Assembly (NCBI RefSeq): GCF_015751765.1
Contig: NZ_JADOTX010000001.1
Coordinates: 6,200,001 to 6,264,000 of the forward strand
Origin: Micromonospora ureilytica
GTDB taxonomy: Bacteria > Actinomycetota > Actinomycetes > Mycobacteriales > Micromonosporaceae
DNA: 64,000 nucleotides
Reading direction: 5' to 3'
The notes beneath the pieces were generated by a model. It worked only from the letters and a program-made list of their open reading frames with translations. It had not been told where the DNA came from and did no database searches. This document shows, piece by piece, positions 5,771 to 16,100 of this stretch. The translations under genes and the position numbers were made by a program. Each line of letters starts with the position of its first letter. Within the stretch, counting starts at the first letter, position 1.

Positions 5771-7423
5771 ATGGGTGGTGGGGACCGAAACGGCGCGCAG
5801 TTGCTCGATGAGCGGTACCGGCTGATCGAGCAACTCGGCGCGGGCGGGATGTCGGTGGTCTGGCGTGGCTACGACGAGGTGCTCGGCCGCCAGGTCGCGG
5901 TGAAGGTGCTGGCCTCCCGCCTGGCCAGCGACCGGGCCTTCCGCCACCGCATCCGGATCGAGGCGCAGGCCGCCGCGCGGCTCTGCCACCCCAACATCAC
6001 GAACGTGTACGACTACGGCGAGTCCGAGCAGGTCGGTCTGACCGTGCCGTACGTGGTGATGGAGCTGGTCGACGGTGCTTCGCTGGCCAGCCGGTTGGGC
6101 CGGGAGAGCCGACTGCCGTGGCGGGAGGCGGTGACCATCGGCGCCGAGGTCAGCTCGGCGCTGGCCACCGCGCACGCCCGTGGGGTTGTGCACCGCGACG
6201 TCACCCCGGGCAACGTCATGCTCACCTCGACCGGCGTCAAGGTGGTCGACTTCGGTATCTCCGCGCTCGTCGGGGAGAGCGAGAAGGGGCCGGACGGCGC
6301 GCTGTTGGGCACTCCCGCCTACCTCGCCCCGGAGCGGCTGGACAACGGCCAGGTCTCCCCGGCCACCGACGTGTACGCGGTGGGGCTGCTGCTCTACCGG
6401 ATGCTCACCGGCCGACTGCCGTGGCTGGCCAGCACGACCACCCAGATGCTGCGCGCCCACATGTACAACGACCCGGAGCCGATGCCCACCGTCCCGGGTC
6501 TGCCCGACGGGGTGGCCGAGCTGGTCGGACGCTGCCTGGCCAAGCGGCCCGCGGACCGGCCGGCCACCGCCGAGCTGACCCGGACGCTCGCCGAGGCGGC
6601 CGGCATGCTCGCGGCGGTGCCGGTCTCCCCGGCCGCCGGACCCCTGGACGCGGCCATGCTCGGCAGTGCGCGCACCACGATCCTGCCCTGGTCGGCGGCG
6701 ACCGACGCGTTGCCGTTGTCGCGGACCCGCAGCCGGGATCGTCGGACGAGGCAGCGGGTGACCCGGCGTCGGCGGGTGGAGGCCGGCGTGGCCGCCGTCG
6801 GGCTGATCGCGGTCACCGGGGCGATGTGGGGGTTCACCTCACGCAGCCCGGCCAGCGGCGGGGACCGGCCGACGACCGAGGCTCGGATGGGCCTGCCGGC
6901 GGCGGCGCCCTGCGAGGTGGCGTACGCGCTGCGCACCGACTCCGGCACCGAGTTCGCCGCCGAGCTGACCCTGACCAACACCGGTGGCCGTGAGCTGCGG
7001 GACTGGACGATGAGCTTCACCTTCCCCGGCCAGCAGAAGGTGACGAAGTCGGAGCCTGCGCCGGTGCACCAGCAGGGGAGCACGGTGCTGATCCGGCCGG
7101 CGGCCCAGCGCACCACGCTGGCCCCCGGTGGGGCCGAGAAGGTGACCCTCACGGGTAAGTACACCGGGGCGAACCCGTTGCCTGTCGAGTTCCGGCTCGG
7201 CGAGGCGACCTGCGGGGTTCGGGTGTCCGGGGTCGCCGGCAGTGCGCCGTCCACGGCCCCGCCGGGCAAGGCCGCCACGACGAAGGCACCGCCCAAGGCC
7301 GCGAAGGTGCCGAGCGGCTCCGGTTCGGGTGGCGGCGCGGCGAAGGCCAAGCCGCCGAAGCCTCCCAAGGCTCCCGCGCAGCCGAAGGCCGCGGGTGGTG
7401 GTCCGGGAAAAGCGGGAAGGTGA
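5771..7423 (+). CDS. Transmembrane Ser/Thr protein kinase with extracellular CBM2-like domain
   Basis: PknB-type kinase of 550 residues. Kinase elements are the glycine loop GAGGMS (23-28), ATP lysine Lys45, HRD at 141-143, Asn148, DFG at 160-162 and GTPAYLAPE in the activation/P+1 region. The catalytic loop reads HRDVTPGN, so the lysine usual in Ser/Thr kinases (HRDxKxxN) is Thr145. A basic linker leads to one membrane helix (about 337-355). Outside lies a domain of about 105 residues bounded by Cys381 and Cys481, with aromatic and beta-strand spacing like cellulose-binding module family 2, then a Lys/Pro/Ala-rich tail. The layout suggests sensing of a polysaccharide or wall glycan. Ligand and targets are unknown, and reduced or altered catalysis is possible. 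Confidence 0.9.
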   Translation: MGGGDRNGAQLLDERYRLIEQLGAGGMSVVWRGYDEVLGRQVAVKVLASRLASDRAFRHRIRIEAQAAARLCHPNITNVYDYGESEQVGLTVPYVVMELVDGASLASRLGRESRLPWREAVTIGAEVSSALATAHARGVVHRDVTPGNVMLTSTGVKVVDFGISALVGESEKGPDGALLGTPAYLAPERLDNGQVSPATDVYAVGLLLYRMLTGRLPWLASTTTQMLRAHMYNDPEPMPTVPGLPDGVAELVGRCLAKRPADRPATAELTRTLAEAAGMLAAVPVSPAAGPLDAAMLGSARTTILPWSAATDALPLSRTRSRDRRTRQRVTRRRRVEAGVAAVGLIAVTGAMWGFTSRSPASGGDRPTTEARMGLPAAAPCEVAYALRTDSGTEFAAELTLTNTGGRELRDWTMSFTFPGQQKVTKSEPAPVHQQGSTVLIRPAAQRTTLAPGGAEKVTLTGKYTGANPLPVEFRLGEATCGVRVSGVAGSAPSTAPPGKAATTKAPPKAAKVPSGSGSGGGAAKAKPPKPPKAPAQPKAAGGGPGKAGR

Positions 7424-10895: not shown

Positions 10896-11282
10896 GGCAC
10901 GTCCGGGCGGGTCCGTCGCACGATCGCGCTCGATCCAGGTTGTAGTGGTGTCACTAAGCGACCGAGGCCACTACATCCATGATTGAGCACGATCTTGCAG
11001 AGGCGGCGGGAGAGTGGCAGCAATTTCACTGATGCTGCTGCCTCGGGGCGGGTTGAGGCAGCAGCATCAGGGATACCGCAGCGGTCTTCGCCAGTTGGTC
11101 GTCGAAGAGGCGGCCCAACGGACCAGTGCCGCTGGCTGCCCAATTGGCCGCCACCGACCTGTAGACCGACGCGGGGTGCTATCCCTGTGCCCGGCGAACT
11201 CAACCGGCCGACACGCCGCGCAACCCTTCCCATGCGTACGGTTGTTCGACAGTATTGGCGCGACGAGCGGAAGGAGGGGCGC
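10896..11282. other. Gene-free stretch of lower GC at the left edge of the accessory island
   Basis: No convincing gene is seen here. The stretch holds an 8-bp inverted repeat (TGTAGTGG at 10941 and CCACTACA at 10968) and a longer hairpin at 11029-11070. Base use becomes visibly less GC-rich than in the phosphodiesterase gene to the left, which fits an insertion boundary. Confidence 0.4.
11029..11070. repeat. Perfect 16-bp inverted repeat, 10-base loop
   Basis: Arms 11029-11044 and 11055-11070 (CTGATGCTGCTGCCTC and its complement) around a 10-base G-rich loop. It lies about 210 bases before the DUF5131 gene. It may be a terminator closing the left neighbourhood or a structured leader. Confidence 0.6.
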
Positions 11283-12038
11283 ATGGCGGACAAAAGCGCC
11301 ATCGAGTGGACGGAAGCAACCTGGAACCCCACCACAGGTTGTGACCGCATCTCGTCGGGCTGCGACAACTGCTATGCGTTGACTCTCGCCAAGCGTCTGA
11401 AGGCCATGGGCTCAGCCAAGTATCAGACTGACGGTGACCCTCGCACGTCTGGGCCGGGTTTCGGGATCGCGCTCCACCCTGACGCGCTTGACATACCGCG
11501 GCGCTGGCGTGATCCCCGGACAGTCTTTGTTAACTCGATGTCGGACTTGTTCCACGCGAGGGTTCCCCTCGAGTACGTGCAGCAAGTTTTTGAGGTGATG
11601 CGCGAGACGCCCCGCCACACCTTCCAGGTGCTGACGAAGCGCGCGTCTCGGCTTGCCAAACTGGCGCATCACCTTGACTGGCCCACCAACGTTTGGATGG
11701 GTGTGAGCGTCGAAGACGAGAGCCATCGGAGTCGGATCGACTGCCTCCGGCAGGTGCCAGCAGCGGTTCGCTTCATCTCGGCGGAACCCTTGCTTGGTCC
11801 ATTGCCGCGTCTCAACCTCGCTGGGATGGACTGGTTGATCGCGGGTGGCGAGTCGGGCCAAGGCTGTCGCACGGTGGACCGATCCTGGGTCACTGATCTG
11901 CGTGACCAGTGCGACCAGGCAGGGACCGCCTTCTTTTTCAAGCAGTGGGGCGGTCGCACACCCAAGGCCGGAGGGCGCCTGCTCGACGGTCGCACCTGGG
12001 ATGAGATGCCAACGCCTCGCCTGCCCGCTGCCGCCTAA
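11283..12038 (+). CDS. DUF5131 family (phage Gp37/Gp68-like) three-cysteine-motif protein
   Basis: 251-residue protein of the DUF5131/Gp37-Gp68 family. Cys20, Cys27 and Cys30 form a C-x6-C-x2-C cluster reminiscent of, but not identical to, the radical SAM CxxxCxxC motif. Other conserved-looking stretches are VNSMSDLFH, TKRASRL, WMGVSVE, SAEPLLGPL, AGGESG and FFFKQWGG. Members are found in phages and bacteria, commonly beside a three-Cys-motif partner (TcmP). Here that partner lies convergently 36 bases downstream but is broken. The ATG at 11283 has AAGGAGGGG just upstream. Biochemical function is not known to me. An iron-sulfur, SAM-dependent modification role is only an inference from the cysteines. 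Confidence 0.87.
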   Translation: MADKSAIEWTEATWNPTTGCDRISSGCDNCYALTLAKRLKAMGSAKYQTDGDPRTSGPGFGIALHPDALDIPRRWRDPRTVFVNSMSDLFHARVPLEYVQQVFEVMRETPRHTFQVLTKRASRLAKLAHHLDWPTNVWMGVSVEDESHRSRIDCLRQVPAAVRFISAEPLLGPLPRLNLAGMDWLIAGGESGQGCRTVDRSWVTDLRDQCDQAGTAFFFKQWGGRTPKAGGRLLDGRTWDEMPTPRLPAAA

Positions 12039-12074
12039 TGGCAGCCGGTCGGCGCTCTGTCGAGGTTCAGCCTC

Positions 12075-12888
12075 TCAACGTCGCCGGATGGGCTCCTTCC
12101 AGAAATCGCCGACGCCGTTGTGGTCGATGAGCCCTTGCCGGTGCAACGACTTGACTGCGTGTCGCGCATGCCGCGTCCACGCTTGGCCGAGCACCCCCCG
12201 GTAAACCTCAGACACCCGCTCCGCGAGCTGGACGCTGTTTGATTCCCGCAACAGCCGAACAATGTTCTGCTCAACAACCCGTGCCACGCGCGGTAGTGCG
12301 CTGCTCACGAATGCATGGCGATCGAACGCAAGTGATCCGAATAATGTGTCCTGACTCATCTGGTTGTTGTAGCGGGCTTCCTCGAGGTCCACGCCTGCTT
12401 GCCCGAGGGCGTCGGCGAAGTGCCATGCGCCTTCTGTGTGCCTCGTGAACAGCATCAGCACATACTTTGGCGAGAGTTCCGGTCGTGGTCGGACCGGCAT
12501 CGTGATCGCGCTGTAGGTCGTTCCCGTAGTCAGCCGTTTCTCGTACTCCTCGCCGACTTTGAGAGCTACCTCGGTTGCAGTCTCCTCATCTCCCTCGCGG
12601 TTGATCCGAGCGAAGTGGTCCTGCCACCAGTCATCGCCGAGAAACCTCGTGAGGTGATCGGCCGTTTTCTGCTCCGCAGGAGGCAGCCGGTCACCTCGGG
12701 AGCGCGCCACTTGAACCGCTCGCCCCATCCTGGCAATGGCGGAGACGCTGAAGTGAAGGAGAACCTCCGTCGGCGGAGAGGGCGGTCGGCCGAGGAGCCC
12801 TGAGCGCACCAGTCCGAAATCGAGCGCAAGGCCGAAGGGGTCGAGGAAGGCAAAGAGTGACGCTTGACGAGCGACCGAGAGGACCTCA
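12075..12888 (-). pseudogene. tcmP: tcmP, C-terminal fragment (interrupted by IS21-family element)
   Basis: This is the 3' part of a three-Cys-motif partner gene. An open frame runs from the IS edge to the stop at 12075. The earliest in-frame GTG (12809) lies downstream of conserved sequence that is still in frame, including SLFAFLDPFGL just inside the IS junction. DPFG sits where DPPY-like motif IV falls in adenine methyltransferases. The rest is charged and helical, ending in a winged-helix-like segment (SLHRQGLIDHNGVGDFWKEP). Joining 12888 to 15052 on this strand restores one frame with the N-terminal fragment. Any protein made from this part alone would lack the nucleotide-binding motifs. 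Confidence 0.85.
12884..12888. repeat. Target-site duplication, left copy (CCTCA)
   Basis: CCTCA directly abuts the IS terminus TGTC at 12889 and is repeated at 15047-15051 beyond the other end. Short duplications of this size are usual for IS21-family insertions. Confidence 0.85.
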
Positions 12889-12915
12889 TGTCAACGCCGG
12901 CTGAAAGTTGACCCC
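12889..12915. repeat. IS terminal inverted repeat (istB side)
   Basis: 27-base end matching 22/27 to the complement of 15020-15046. A second related copy follows at about 12922-12938. Confidence 0.85.
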
Positions 12916-12958
12916 TCCGTTCCGGCCGAATTTTGACCCCCTCGCTTCTTGTTGATGT

Positions 12959-13750
12959 TCAGTCGTTGGTCTTGATGGCTGCGGGGACGCGGCCGAGGTC
13001 GCGGTCTTTGAGCCGGTAGCTGTCGCCCTTCATGGAGACGACTTCTGCGTGGTGGACGAGGCGGTCGATCATGGCTGCGGCGACGACGTCATCGCCGAAG
13101 ACTTCGCCCCATCTGCCGAAGGGCTTGTTCGAGGTGACGATGAGGCTGGCGCGCTCGTAGCGGTTGGAGACCAGCTGAAAGAACAGGTTCGCGGCTTCGG
13201 CTTCGAAGGGGATGTAGCCGACCTCGTCGACGATCAGCAGCGGGATCCGGCCGAGTTTGACCAGTTCGTCTTGCAGGCGCCCGGCGTGGTGGGCGTCGGC
13301 GAGGCGGGACACCCATTGGGCGGCGGTGGCGAACGCGACCCGGTGCCCGGCCTGGCAGGCCCGGATCCCGAGGCCGATGGACAGGTGGGTCTTGCCGGTG
13401 CCGGGCGGGCCCAAGAAGACGACGTTCTCTTTCGACGCCACGAAGTCCAGGGTTCCGAGGTGTCCGATGGTCTCCCGTTTGAGGGAGCGTTGGTGCTCGA
13501 AGTCGAACTCTTCCAGGCTCTTGCGGGCCGGGAAGCGGGCTGCGCGGATGCGTCCCTCACCGCCGTGGGCCTCGCGGGCGGCGACCTCGCGTTGCAGGCA
13601 GGCGGCGAGGAACTCCTCATGCGTCCACGACTCCGCCCGAGCCCGCTCGCCCAGACGATCGACCGACGCAGCCAAGGAGGGCGCTTTCAGTGCGCGGGTG
13701 AGGAACGCGATCTCGGAGGACACGTTGCGGTTGCTGGTTTTGGTGGCCAT
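12959..13750 (-). CDS. istB: IS21-family helper ATPase IstB
   Basis: 263-residue DnaA/DnaC-like AAA+ ATPase that assists IstA in target selection and transposition. Walker A GPPGTGKT is at 114-121, Walker B LLIVDEVG follows, and the SNKPF/sensor-1 region and arginine region are present, so it looks functional. The ATG (13748-13750) overlaps the istA stop, the translational coupling usual for these elements. Confidence 0.95.
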   Translation of the reverse strand: MATKTSNRNVSSEIAFLTRALKAPSLAASVDRLGERARAESWTHEEFLAACLQREVAAREAHGGEGRIRAARFPARKSLEEFDFEHQRSLKRETIGHLGTLDFVASKENVVFLGPPGTGKTHLSIGLGIRACQAGHRVAFATAAQWVSRLADAHHAGRLQDELVKLGRIPLLIVDEVGYIPFEAEAANLFFQLVSNRYERASLIVTSNKPFGRWGEVFGDDVVAAAMIDRLVHHAEVVSMKGDSYRLKDRDLGRVPAAIKTND

Positions 13751-15009
13751 CAGGCGGCCACCTCGTCCAGGCCGAACATCCGGTCGTAGTCACTCAACGC
13801 TCGACGCTCGACCTGAGCATCGACGGCCGGCACCGGGGTGTGCTGGGCGGCGGCACGCAAGTCAGCCGCCGCTTGGCGGTGGACCGGGTCGGTGATCGTC
13901 TGATGTCCGGCCCAACAACGCTCATGCTGGGCGACCAACCGGCCGTCGCAGGACACCTGGACCTGGTCGCCGTCGGCGGTGACCTCGACGCGTCGGCCAA
14001 CGACCGACGGGTGCACGGAATAGTCGTTGGCGTCCAACCGGACGTAATGATCACGTGGCAAGCGGGTGGCCTGTCGCCAGCCGACCACCGGCGCGACCGG
14101 CGGCAGTGACAGCATCGCGGCCCGGTCGGCGTCCCACCGGTCCACCGGGCGGCAGCCCAACACCCGGTGCTGGCGGTTATTCGCCCGCGCCAACCAGTTG
14201 GTCAGCTGGGCGTTGAAGTCATGTGCTGAGCCGAACCGGCGCCCCGGCAGAAACGACGTCTCCAGATAGCCGTTGGCTCTCTCGACCAGACCCTTGGCCT
14301 CCGGATCCGCCGGCCGGCACTGGATCACCTTGATGCCCAGGGTCCCGCGGAAAGCGTTCATAGTCTCGGTCAACTGCGGCCGGCCCGCCCGCCACTGCCC
14401 GACCGCGGACTCGTTGTCCCACACCAACGCCTTGGGCACCCGTCCCCAGCCTGAGATCAACGTCCAGTGCCCGGCCAGCAGATCCGGCGACTGCCTGCTC
14501 GGGATCATCACCGCTGACAACCACCGCGAGTAGCCGCACACCATCACCAACACCGGCGGCCTGCCGACCTGCCCAAAGCCCAACGGCACGTCCGCCGGCG
14601 GGAACCACAGATCACACTGCGCCAACTCCCCCGGCAAATAATCCGTCCGCTGACTGGGGTCGGGACGGCGGAACAACGGCCGCAGCTGCTGCACCCGATC
14701 GGCGAACACCGTCTTGCCCCGAGTCCACCCGACCCGCTCCATGATCACCGTCGTCGGCATGTCCGGGAACTCCGCCAACAACACCCGGATCTGCGGCTCC
14801 ACCGCATCCACGATCGAGCCCTTCACCGCCCGCTGATAACGAGGCGGCTCATGACTGGCCAAGGCCTTCCGCACCGTGTTCCGCGAGACCTCAAGCCGAC
14901 GAGCGATGGCCTTGATCGCCATCCCCTCCGCCCGGTGCAACCGACGGATCTCTGCCCAGTCCTCCACGCTCAGCACCTCCCGATGCTTCCGGAGGTGGTC
15001 AAGATTCAA
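13750..15009 (-). CDS. istA: IS21-family transposase IstA
   Basis: 419-residue transposase. An N-terminal helix-turn-helix (about residues 30-55, KAIARRLEVSRNTVRKAL) binds the terminal repeats. An rve/DDE catalytic core follows, with Asp133 (QCDLW), Asp198 (VWDNES) and Glu243 (KGLVER). A C-terminal beta-barrel-like part with basic patches completes the protein. Translation appears to start at a TTG (15009), and a GTG about 30 bases downstream is an alternative. No frameshift is seen. Confidence 0.95.
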   Translation of the reverse strand: MNLDHLRKHREVLSVEDWAEIRRLHRAEGMAIKAIARRLEVSRNTVRKALASHEPPRYQRAVKGSIVDAVEPQIRVLLAEFPDMPTTVIMERVGWTRGKTVFADRVQQLRPLFRRPDPSQRTDYLPGELAQCDLWFPPADVPLGFGQVGRPPVLVMVCGYSRWLSAVMIPSRQSPDLLAGHWTLISGWGRVPKALVWDNESAVGQWRAGRPQLTETMNAFRGTLGIKVIQCRPADPEAKGLVERANGYLETSFLPGRRFGSAHDFNAQLTNWLARANNRQHRVLGCRPVDRWDADRAAMLSLPPVAPVVGWRQATRLPRDHYVRLDANDYSVHPSVVGRRVEVTADGDQVQVSCDGRLVAQHERCWAGHQTITDPVHRQAAADLRAAAQHTPVPAVDAQVERRALSDYDRMFGLDEVAA

Positions 15010-15019
15010 CCGGAACCAC

Positions 15020-15046
15020 GGGGTCAGTTTTCACGCGGCGTCGACA
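15020..15046. repeat. IS terminal inverted repeat (istA side)
   Basis: 27-base end with outer terminus CGTCGACA. It introduces the premature stop (TGA, complement of 15024-15026) that ends the tcmP N-terminal fragment. Confidence 0.85.
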
Positions 15047-15051
15047 CCTCA
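15047..15051. repeat. Target-site duplication, right copy (CCTCA)
   Basis: Identical to 12884-12888 and immediately outside the IS end. Confidence 0.85.
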
Positions 15052-15398
15052 GGCAGATGATCTGCCACGTCGCCCTGCCGGAGGATGCGCCTCGTTGAGC
15101 CCCCACGCTGCTGCAGAACCCGCTGAAGATTCGCGTAGTGGGAAGGATCTTTCTCGACGAAGAAGAGCAATACGTTGCGAAAGCTCCCGACCGTGTCGGC
15201 GCACCGCGACAGCAGCAGCGGTGACCCTTCCTCCCCTTCCTCCTCGTACTCGCCTCGTCCCGCGTAGCCGTCGAGGAAGACGACCGGTTTACCTTGGCCG
15301 GTCTTGGATGCGAAGACGACCGGGTAGCGCTTCAAGATCCCGTGCTTGAGTACTGCTGCGGCTTTACGGGACCGGAAGAAGTCGTCGTTGGCCGACAC
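15052..15398 (-). pseudogene. tcmP: tcmP, N-terminal fragment (interrupted by IS21-family element)
   Basis: The 5' part of the three-Cys-motif partner gene. The GTG at 15398 is chosen because AAGGAGG lies 4 bases upstream. The fragment has FLDGYAGRGEY followed by GSPLL, and then FFVEKDPSHYANL. These look like motif I (nucleotide loop) and the acidic motif II of a class I methyltransferase-like fold, which is my inference. In the present sequence the frame runs into the IS and stops at 15024, giving a 124-residue truncated product. Together with 12075-12888 it makes a 386-residue protein with no frameshift. Confidence 0.85.
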
Positions 15399-15413
15399 CG
15401 CGCCTCCTTGCAA

Positions 15414-15432
15414 GCATCACCAATGGTGATGC
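15414..15432. promoter_or_regulatory. Perfect operator-like palindrome upstream of tcmP
   Basis: GCATCACCA-A-TGGTGATGC has 9-base perfect arms around one base. On the minus strand it falls just downstream of a TACCTT hexamer (complement of 15434-15439) and just upstream of the tcmP ribosome binding site. It therefore covers the expected transcription start, a position suited to a dimeric repressor. Confidence 0.5.
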
Positions 15433-15578
15433 GAAGGTAGCGGACGGTGTGCCTAGCTTCTGTCCTGTCAATCAGGCGGAGCGGTGCACGGGAGAGCGCC
15501 ATGCCGCTCACCAGTCCTAACGGTTGGCAGGTGGCGGCGGGGGCGAGCGGCGTGTCCTTGATCTGACAGTGGAATGAG

Positions 15579-15809
15579 TCAGTCGCGTGAGTGTTCAGCG
15601 ACGTACGTGCCGCGGCCGGGCTGGCCGGTGATCAGCTCGCGGTCGTGCAGCAGGGAGAGCGCCCGCGAGGCCGTGTTCATGTGCACAGCGTGGGCCTCGG
15701 CGAGTTCCCGGGTGGAGGGCAGCTTGTCGCCCGGCTTCAGCTCGCCGCTCTTGATCTTCGCGGCGATCTCGTTGGCGATGCGGCGATATGGGGCTTCTGC
15801 TGTGGGCAT
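15579..15809 (-). CDS. GntR-type winged-helix regulator, DNA-binding domain only
   Basis: 76-residue GntR-class winged helix: YRRIANEIAAKI, LPSTRELAEAHAVHMNTASRAL and the wing GRGTYV. There is no effector domain, so it resembles the very short GntR proteins carried by actinobacterial accessory elements. The ATG at 15809 is preferred because GGAG lies 7 bases upstream; an upstream ATG at 15845 lacks a good site. It may control the small gene to its right or tcmP to its left, but no specific operator match was established. Confidence 0.85.
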   Translation of the reverse strand: MPTAEAPYRRIANEIAAKIKSGELKPGDKLPSTRELAEAHAVHMNTASRALSLLHDRELITGQPGRGTYVAEHSRD

Positions 15810-16100
15810 GGTGAGGACTCCGGTCGGTTCGGCGTCTTCGATCATGCCGGCCTACACCAGTTACTGCAACAGGCTGTGGTGTCGCTGCTTCGCAGGGTCG
15901 ACCTACACAAGCATTTGGGGTAGGTTGCTGATGTCCGGCTCCGGTTGGTTCGGCAAACCCTCGGGGCGTGGGCGTGAGGTGGGCTCCGCGTTCGTACCGC
16001 CACCGATGAGGGCTGCGGGCGTGGGGCCGGGCGGTCCGGTGGGCGTCCCCTACCGGCACACCGGACCGCCCACCAGGTTGACGAGTCGAGGGTGATGGCT

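Follow-up and report, generated by a model that had tools for sequence, protein, structure and literature searches.

The locus considered here, a 64,000-nucleotide stretch of the Micromonospora ureilytica chromosome at positions 6,200,001-6,264,000 of its single contig (the window), raises the question of what becomes of a two-gene module when a mobile element lands in one of its halves. The gene concerned, tcmP, is read in two pieces on either side of an insertion sequence, and its partner, encoding a DUF5131 protein, lies beside it (Table 1). What happened here is insertional inactivation of an ordinary sort, and the pair that it struck is a candidate for phage defence. The full account, to which we give a probability of about 0.95, is that an IS21-family element inserted into tcmP after the split from Micromonospora arida, that TcmP was lost, and that the DUF5131 gene was left orphaned.

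Table 1. Positions in the window of the disrupted tcmP gene, the inserted element and the neighbouring partner gene.
Feature	Position	Strand	Remarks
DUF5131 (phage Gp37/Gp68), 251 aa, three-Cys motif Cx6Cx2C	11283..12038	+	PF07505 333.1 bits; start taken from relatives
tcmP C-terminal piece	12075..12888	-	first common start codon GTG 12809 = residue 143
Target-site duplication CCTCA, copy 1	12884..12888	.	single copy in M. arida
Left terminal inverted repeat	12889..12915	+	core repeated 25 bp further in
IS21-family insertion sequence, 2158 bp	12889..15046	-	terminal inverted repeats 22/27; istA/istB; identical second copy; empty site in M. arida
istB, helper ATPase, 263 aa	12959..13750	-	NF038214 296.1 bits, cut-off 200; IstB_IS21 domain
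istA, IS21 transposase, 419 aa	13750..15009	-	NF033546 218.4 bits, cut-off 160; rve and Mu-transpos_C_2 domains
Right terminal inverted repeat	15020..15046	-	core repeated 25 bp further in
Target-site duplication CCTCA, copy 2	15047..15051	.	
tcmP N-terminal piece, codons 1-117	15047..15398	-	start GTG 15398 taken from relatives
Region upstream of tcmP, with 19-bp near-palindrome GCATCACCATTGGTGATGC	15399..15450	-	possible operator

The element is a complete member of the IS21 family, with adjacent, co-directed genes for an IstA DDE transposase and an IstB AAA+ helper, tandem end repeats and a short target-site duplication. Both proteins exceed the curated cut-offs. The family and the ends given in the first-pass annotation hold; the 22 matches that it had counted between the 27-bp ends compare with 18 for the best among 20,000 random window pairs. 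The second copies of the terminal core match the left core at 13/16 and 12/16 positions. The istA stop and istB start overlap as TGATG, and this overlap, the related tandem repeats at both ends and the 5-bp target duplications are all features shared with the IS21 family, from which nothing of note sets the element apart. Elsewhere in the genus, every further full-length copy with inspected ends (8/8) is also flanked by duplications of 5 bp. Among the long copies sampled there, the closest, in G048, is 96% identical over positions 61-2158, and the remaining full-length ones reach at most 89%.

The uninterrupted state of the gene is found in close relatives. Micromonospora arida LB32 (G007) is syntenic with the window and 94.8-96.6% identical to it over most of 4-21257. 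The alignment of the window breaks off after 12888 and picks up again from 15046, on bases that are neighbours in M. arida (15046 itself is a one-base chance extension), and the empty site holds one CCTCA only, in agreement with the duplication proposed earlier. The M. arida tcmP gene is a single open frame of 386 residues whose product scores 113.6 bits against the TcmP profile TIGR04474 (cut-off 53), and it adjoins a three-Cys DUF5131 gene; the window's gene differs in being interrupted, with each piece alone under the cut-off. Joining the pieces on paper had given 347 + 814 = 1161 bases, or 386 residues, which is the natural M. arida length, and the predicted junction reading HLPEV-LSVARQASLFAFLDPFGL is present as such in that species. 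At the same syntenic locus G131 has an uninterrupted tcmP of 386 residues (protein 92% identical), and in G001 (M. acroterricola) a frame without breaks matches residues 1-385, again at 92%. An uninterrupted related gene, the search for which had been set beforehand as the refuting test, is therefore present in all three; these nearest relatives come from a set with one genome per species.

The same chromosome carries the element once more, at 3,857,968-3,860,125, between open frames resembling, by eye, a sigma factor and a helicase; this second copy is 100% identical over all 2158 bases and has its own target duplication, ATTGC. No comparable copy was found in G007, G131 or G001 (best matches E ~3e-4 to 6e-4), G007 and G001 being drafts. 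The tcmP flanks differ from M. arida at 4/352 and 16/814 bases, 15 of the differences synonymous and 5 non-synonymous, and the comparison revealed no stops or frameshifts. Polarised by G131, two of the five amino-acid changes fall on the M. arida side and one on the window side, with two undecided. Because the second copy is identical and the flanks are undecayed, these comparisons support a recent insertion, as had been suggested at first reading, and because M. arida, G131 and G001 lack the insertion and no comparable copy was found in them, it post-dates the split from M. arida. Such a recent date accounts for the little decay in the tcmP pieces. Gene conversion between the two element copies could mimic a younger age; the state of the flanks argues against a much older date. 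In the stretch 11280-12038, which holds the DUF5131 gene, 11/759 bases differ from M. arida (5 synonymous, 6 non-synonymous), so that the partner shows no visible advantage in preservation over the interrupted tcmP.

In the proposed sequence of events, a lineage already split from M. arida acquired the complete element by transposition at codon 117/118 of tcmP; the insertion left the 5-bp duplication and parted most cofactor-site residues from the motif IV aspartate, D132. The residues K18, H19, motif I (DGYAG, residues 43-47), S59 and E82 all lie on the N-terminal piece, and the motif IV-like DPFG (residues 132-135) lies on the other side of the insertion, a separation that the first-pass annotation had recognized. 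It had likewise read the two flanks as halves of one tcmP gene, and they match TIGR04474 separately, in early and later parts of the profile (50.3 bits over profile positions 4-114 and 33.8 bits over 155-259, against a whole-protein cut-off of 53). From its GTG, the N-terminal piece gives a 124-residue read that stops inside the element at 15024. The frame of the C-terminal piece is closed by an in-frame TGA at the element tip, and its first ATG, GTG or TTG lies beyond D132. Because the one piece ends in the element and the other, from its first common start, is without D132, tcmP is almost certainly disabled and neither piece is plausibly active, as had been expected from the letters of the DNA; TcmP activity would be gone and the convergent DUF5131 partner orphaned. 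A search of the same genome found no other tcmP. The loss was probably neutral or mildly favoured. Gene fragments likewise flank an insertion sequence in yhiS of E. coli K-12, split by IS5 according to the record annotation, which differs in gene, host and IS family.

Two rival readings were weighed. The first supposes that the split is an assembly artefact, with the IS repeat misplaced in tcmP, since an identical second copy can confuse assemblers. This is very improbable: the genome assembled into a single 7,096,270-bp contig, the two copies carry different perfect 5-bp duplications (CCTCA and ATTGC), something that misassembly would not produce, and at the corresponding site of M. arida CCTCA stands once. 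Misassembly was rejected on these grounds. The other supposes that the pieces still work together, either as a split enzyme or as a switch regulated by precise excision. The flanks are undecayed, the intact relative has the same frame on both sides, and istAB and tcmP are co-oriented, so that transcription may run through; the lack of decay is nevertheless explained by a recent insertion, and the start of the C-terminal piece after D132 makes complementation by a split enzyme unlikely, as does the TGA at the element tip. The insertion had also been called exactly reversible in silico. That holds on paper, the intact frame being natural in M. arida, but not beyond it, as precise excision is not known for IS21 elements. 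Continued function of the pieces, in either form, thus has only a very slight chance of being correct, and insertional inactivation is retained.

Whether such inactivation recurs, and is selected, was addressed by a survey. TcmP matches occur in 34/160 Micromonospora genomes, at 38 loci. At 36 of these the contig also carries a DUF5131 match nearby, and in 36/36 pairs that match spans the whole DUF5131 profile. At least three of the 38 loci have an IS-split tcmP, involving three IS families, with a full-length DUF5131 gene beside each. Besides the present case, both are in G133: at the same chromosomal locus its tcmP is split by an IS701 element flanked by duplicated CTAG, and a second tcmP, at another place in that genome, has its parts on either side of an IS3-type transposase gene. 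These counts are lower bounds; the TIGR04474 profile covers approximately the first 260-280 residues only, and later IS hits are visible only in the 25/160 genomes matched by a second search. Left out of the count were G624 and G373, in which contigs end in or near the gene and pieces overlap or disagree. One G624 contig has an IS3-like frame next to tcmP, frameshift- or stop-like breaks are seen in tcmP of G113, G320, G339, G375, G520 and G467, and the G097 gene is cut by a contig end. In a family sample of 354 genomes, 59 of them with a match, partial matches separated by an IS-sized gap were not seen again outside the genus. A phylum sample gave TcmP matches in 41/396 genomes, among them G524, with an IS30 transposase gene between the tcmP parts and a full-length DUF5131 gene adjoining.

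The recurrence of hits by IS21, IS701 and IS3 beside an unbroken DUF5131 gene, with the IS30 case in G524 as a possible fourth, would fit a recurrent, selected loss: TcmP would be the half that acts, as a methyltransferase, and bears the cost, insertions into it would be favoured, and DUF5131, harmless alone, would be kept. We consider this unlikely, although less so than the two readings above. At this locus tcmP measures 1161 bp and the DUF5131 gene 756 bp, and by length alone the probability that all three hits fall in tcmP is ~0.22, and that all four do ~0.13; three or four hits confined to the longer gene are therefore unremarkable. The G524 break, moreover, coincides with a duplicated stretch of at least 6.9 kb, and the family sample supplied no additional case. 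The pattern is suggestive, but gene length explains it at present numbers, and selection for tcmP loss is for that reason not claimed. Insertional inactivation of tcmP here is ordinary genome wear, of mild interest in that unrelated elements have struck tcmP in a few further bacteria too.

As for the product that was lost, an intact TcmP homologue is modelled with a methyltransferase fold (pLDDT 89.7), Rossmann-like and with AdoMet-site residues present, for which the tied best fold matches include RlmJ and catechol and histamine methyltransferases. For TcmP we infer the activity of an AdoMet-dependent methyltransferase of nucleic acid, and in the predicted model it looks like one of RlmJ type, with the main cofactor-site residues kept. 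By sequence there is little likeness to RlmJ, the 23S rRNA m6A2030 methyltransferase: hhalign gave a probability of 14.9%, and the pairwise E was 0.0018 across 44 columns. The intact homologue gave no Pfam match at E <= 1, RsmJ (PF04378) included, against 423.9 bits for E. coli RlmJ, and a PDB sequence search with the TcmP profile returned two chance-level matches only (E 0.12 and 0.82). The motif DPFG, invariant in 108 homologues, stands in place of the DPPY of RlmJ motif IV, TcmP has no evident counterpart of the RlmJ tail residues Y4/H6, and the C-terminal part of TcmP is longer.

The surviving DUF5131 gene is intact, full-length and convergent with tcmP, 36 bp apart; its product scores 70.3 bits against TIGR04471 (radical SAM mobile pair protein A), below the cut-off of 355. 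The pair sits between gdpD and branched-chain amino-acid transporter genes (names assigned by eye). From 20 genomes listed without tcmP, the transporter locus and ~1.5 kb upstream of it were recovered in 19. None of these 19 loci had a match to window 10998-15588; 8 showed part of gdpD, and 5 the GntR region without the pair. The pair looks like an accessory insert, because the transporter loci of genomes without tcmP carry no match to its region, and the GntR gene is not bound to it, since 5/19 loci keep the GntR region alone. The same convergent pair occurs in Gordonia phage Jablanski, between integrase and repressor, and on a Nocardia plasmid. TcmP relatives (E <= 1e-5) were found in 25/72,556 plasmid records and 5/50,697 phage records. 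The DUF5131 protein and TcmP presumably act together.

A role in defence is suggested by the PADLOC systems PDC-M30 and PDC-M41, which are also two-gene pairs. Their B proteins are matched strongly by DUF5131 (PDC-M41B/M30B models, E 6e-105 or better), but the matches of intact TcmP to the A models are weak (16.7-31 bits), and PDC status itself denotes a candidate. On this evidence the DUF5131-TcmP pair is a candidate anti-phage module. In a 100-strain P. aeruginosa panel, a published study places PDC-M30 in 32 strains, 68.8% of them phage-resistant, and terms systems like it not experimentally validated (PMC10855318). A table of regulated genes in Sinorhizobium meliloti includes a TcmP gene adjoining the defence gene hna (PMC12445080). 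A literature search found no experimental test of TcmP, the name appearing among the matches listed only in unrelated meanings, and no publication on DUF5131; for insertion sequences and defence genes it found no relevant literature, matches on IS21 and defence being judged by title.

The event itself is a routine knockout, but a recent and datable one; it supplies a mutant made by nature, for which a close relative that keeps the gene whole is at hand. The module that was hit is a more interesting object than the insertion. Little studied, it gains a concrete hypothesis, that of an RlmJ-type methyltransferase with DPFG, and its DUF5131 partner survives alone here; M. arida, with tcmP intact, and the window strain, with tcmP broken, form a natural pair for comparing methylation and phage sensitivity. 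The near-palindrome upstream of tcmP (Table 1) is possibly an operator.

In-frame inserts of 345 and 341 residues, each with a LAGLIDADG match, interrupt the DUF5131 proteins of genomes G563 and G023, respectively. Both are placed exactly at the third cysteine of the three-Cys motif, begin with a cysteine, and carry THN at the end, followed by Cys-Tyr-Ala, features that suggest intein-like elements. Inteins favor active-site positions, and their apparent presence at this residue therefore hints that the third cysteine of DUF5131 is catalytic.

Features of tcmP and DUF5131 loci and their surroundings
Feature	Source	Position	Remark
DUF5131 with in-frame insert	G563	L132:487-2457	LAGLIDADG match in insert
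DUF5131 with in-frame insert	G023	L133:1158-3191	LAGLIDADG match in insert
IS-interrupted tcmP	G133	L077:7121-8569	
IS-interrupted tcmP	G133	L078, about 5950-7260	
IS30 copy and DNA beyond, duplicated	G524	L102:4936-11866 and L103	
tcmP matches	G137	C1:2473169 and C1:5656570	
Convergent tcmP and DUF5131 pair	Gordonia phage Jablanski	L134:2495-4364	
19-bp near-palindrome GCATCACCATTGGTGATGC	window	within 15399-15450	directly upstream of tcmP
Small GntR-type regulator, 88 aa	window	15579-15845	adjoins tcmP

A single Micromonospora genome, G133, contains two different tcmP genes, each broken by a different insertion sequence (IS701 and IS3), with the DUF5131 partners of both intact. At least 6.9 kb of genome G524, comprising the IS30 copy and adjoining DNA and beginning at the IS30 end, is repeated identically at a second chromosomal site. 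Genome G137 has two tcmP matches of equal score and frame length, 3.2 Mb apart, each accompanied by a separate DUF5131 gene. The pair carried by phage Jablanski is flanked by the integrase and immunity repressor, its tcmP being annotated as a methyltransferase and its DUF5131 as a hypothetical protein.

Beside tcmP in the window, the near-palindrome is partially conserved in M. arida, a close relative with uninterrupted tcmP, and is a possible operator. The GntR regulator region is present at the same locus in 5 of 19 genomes lacking the tcmP/DUF5131 pair.
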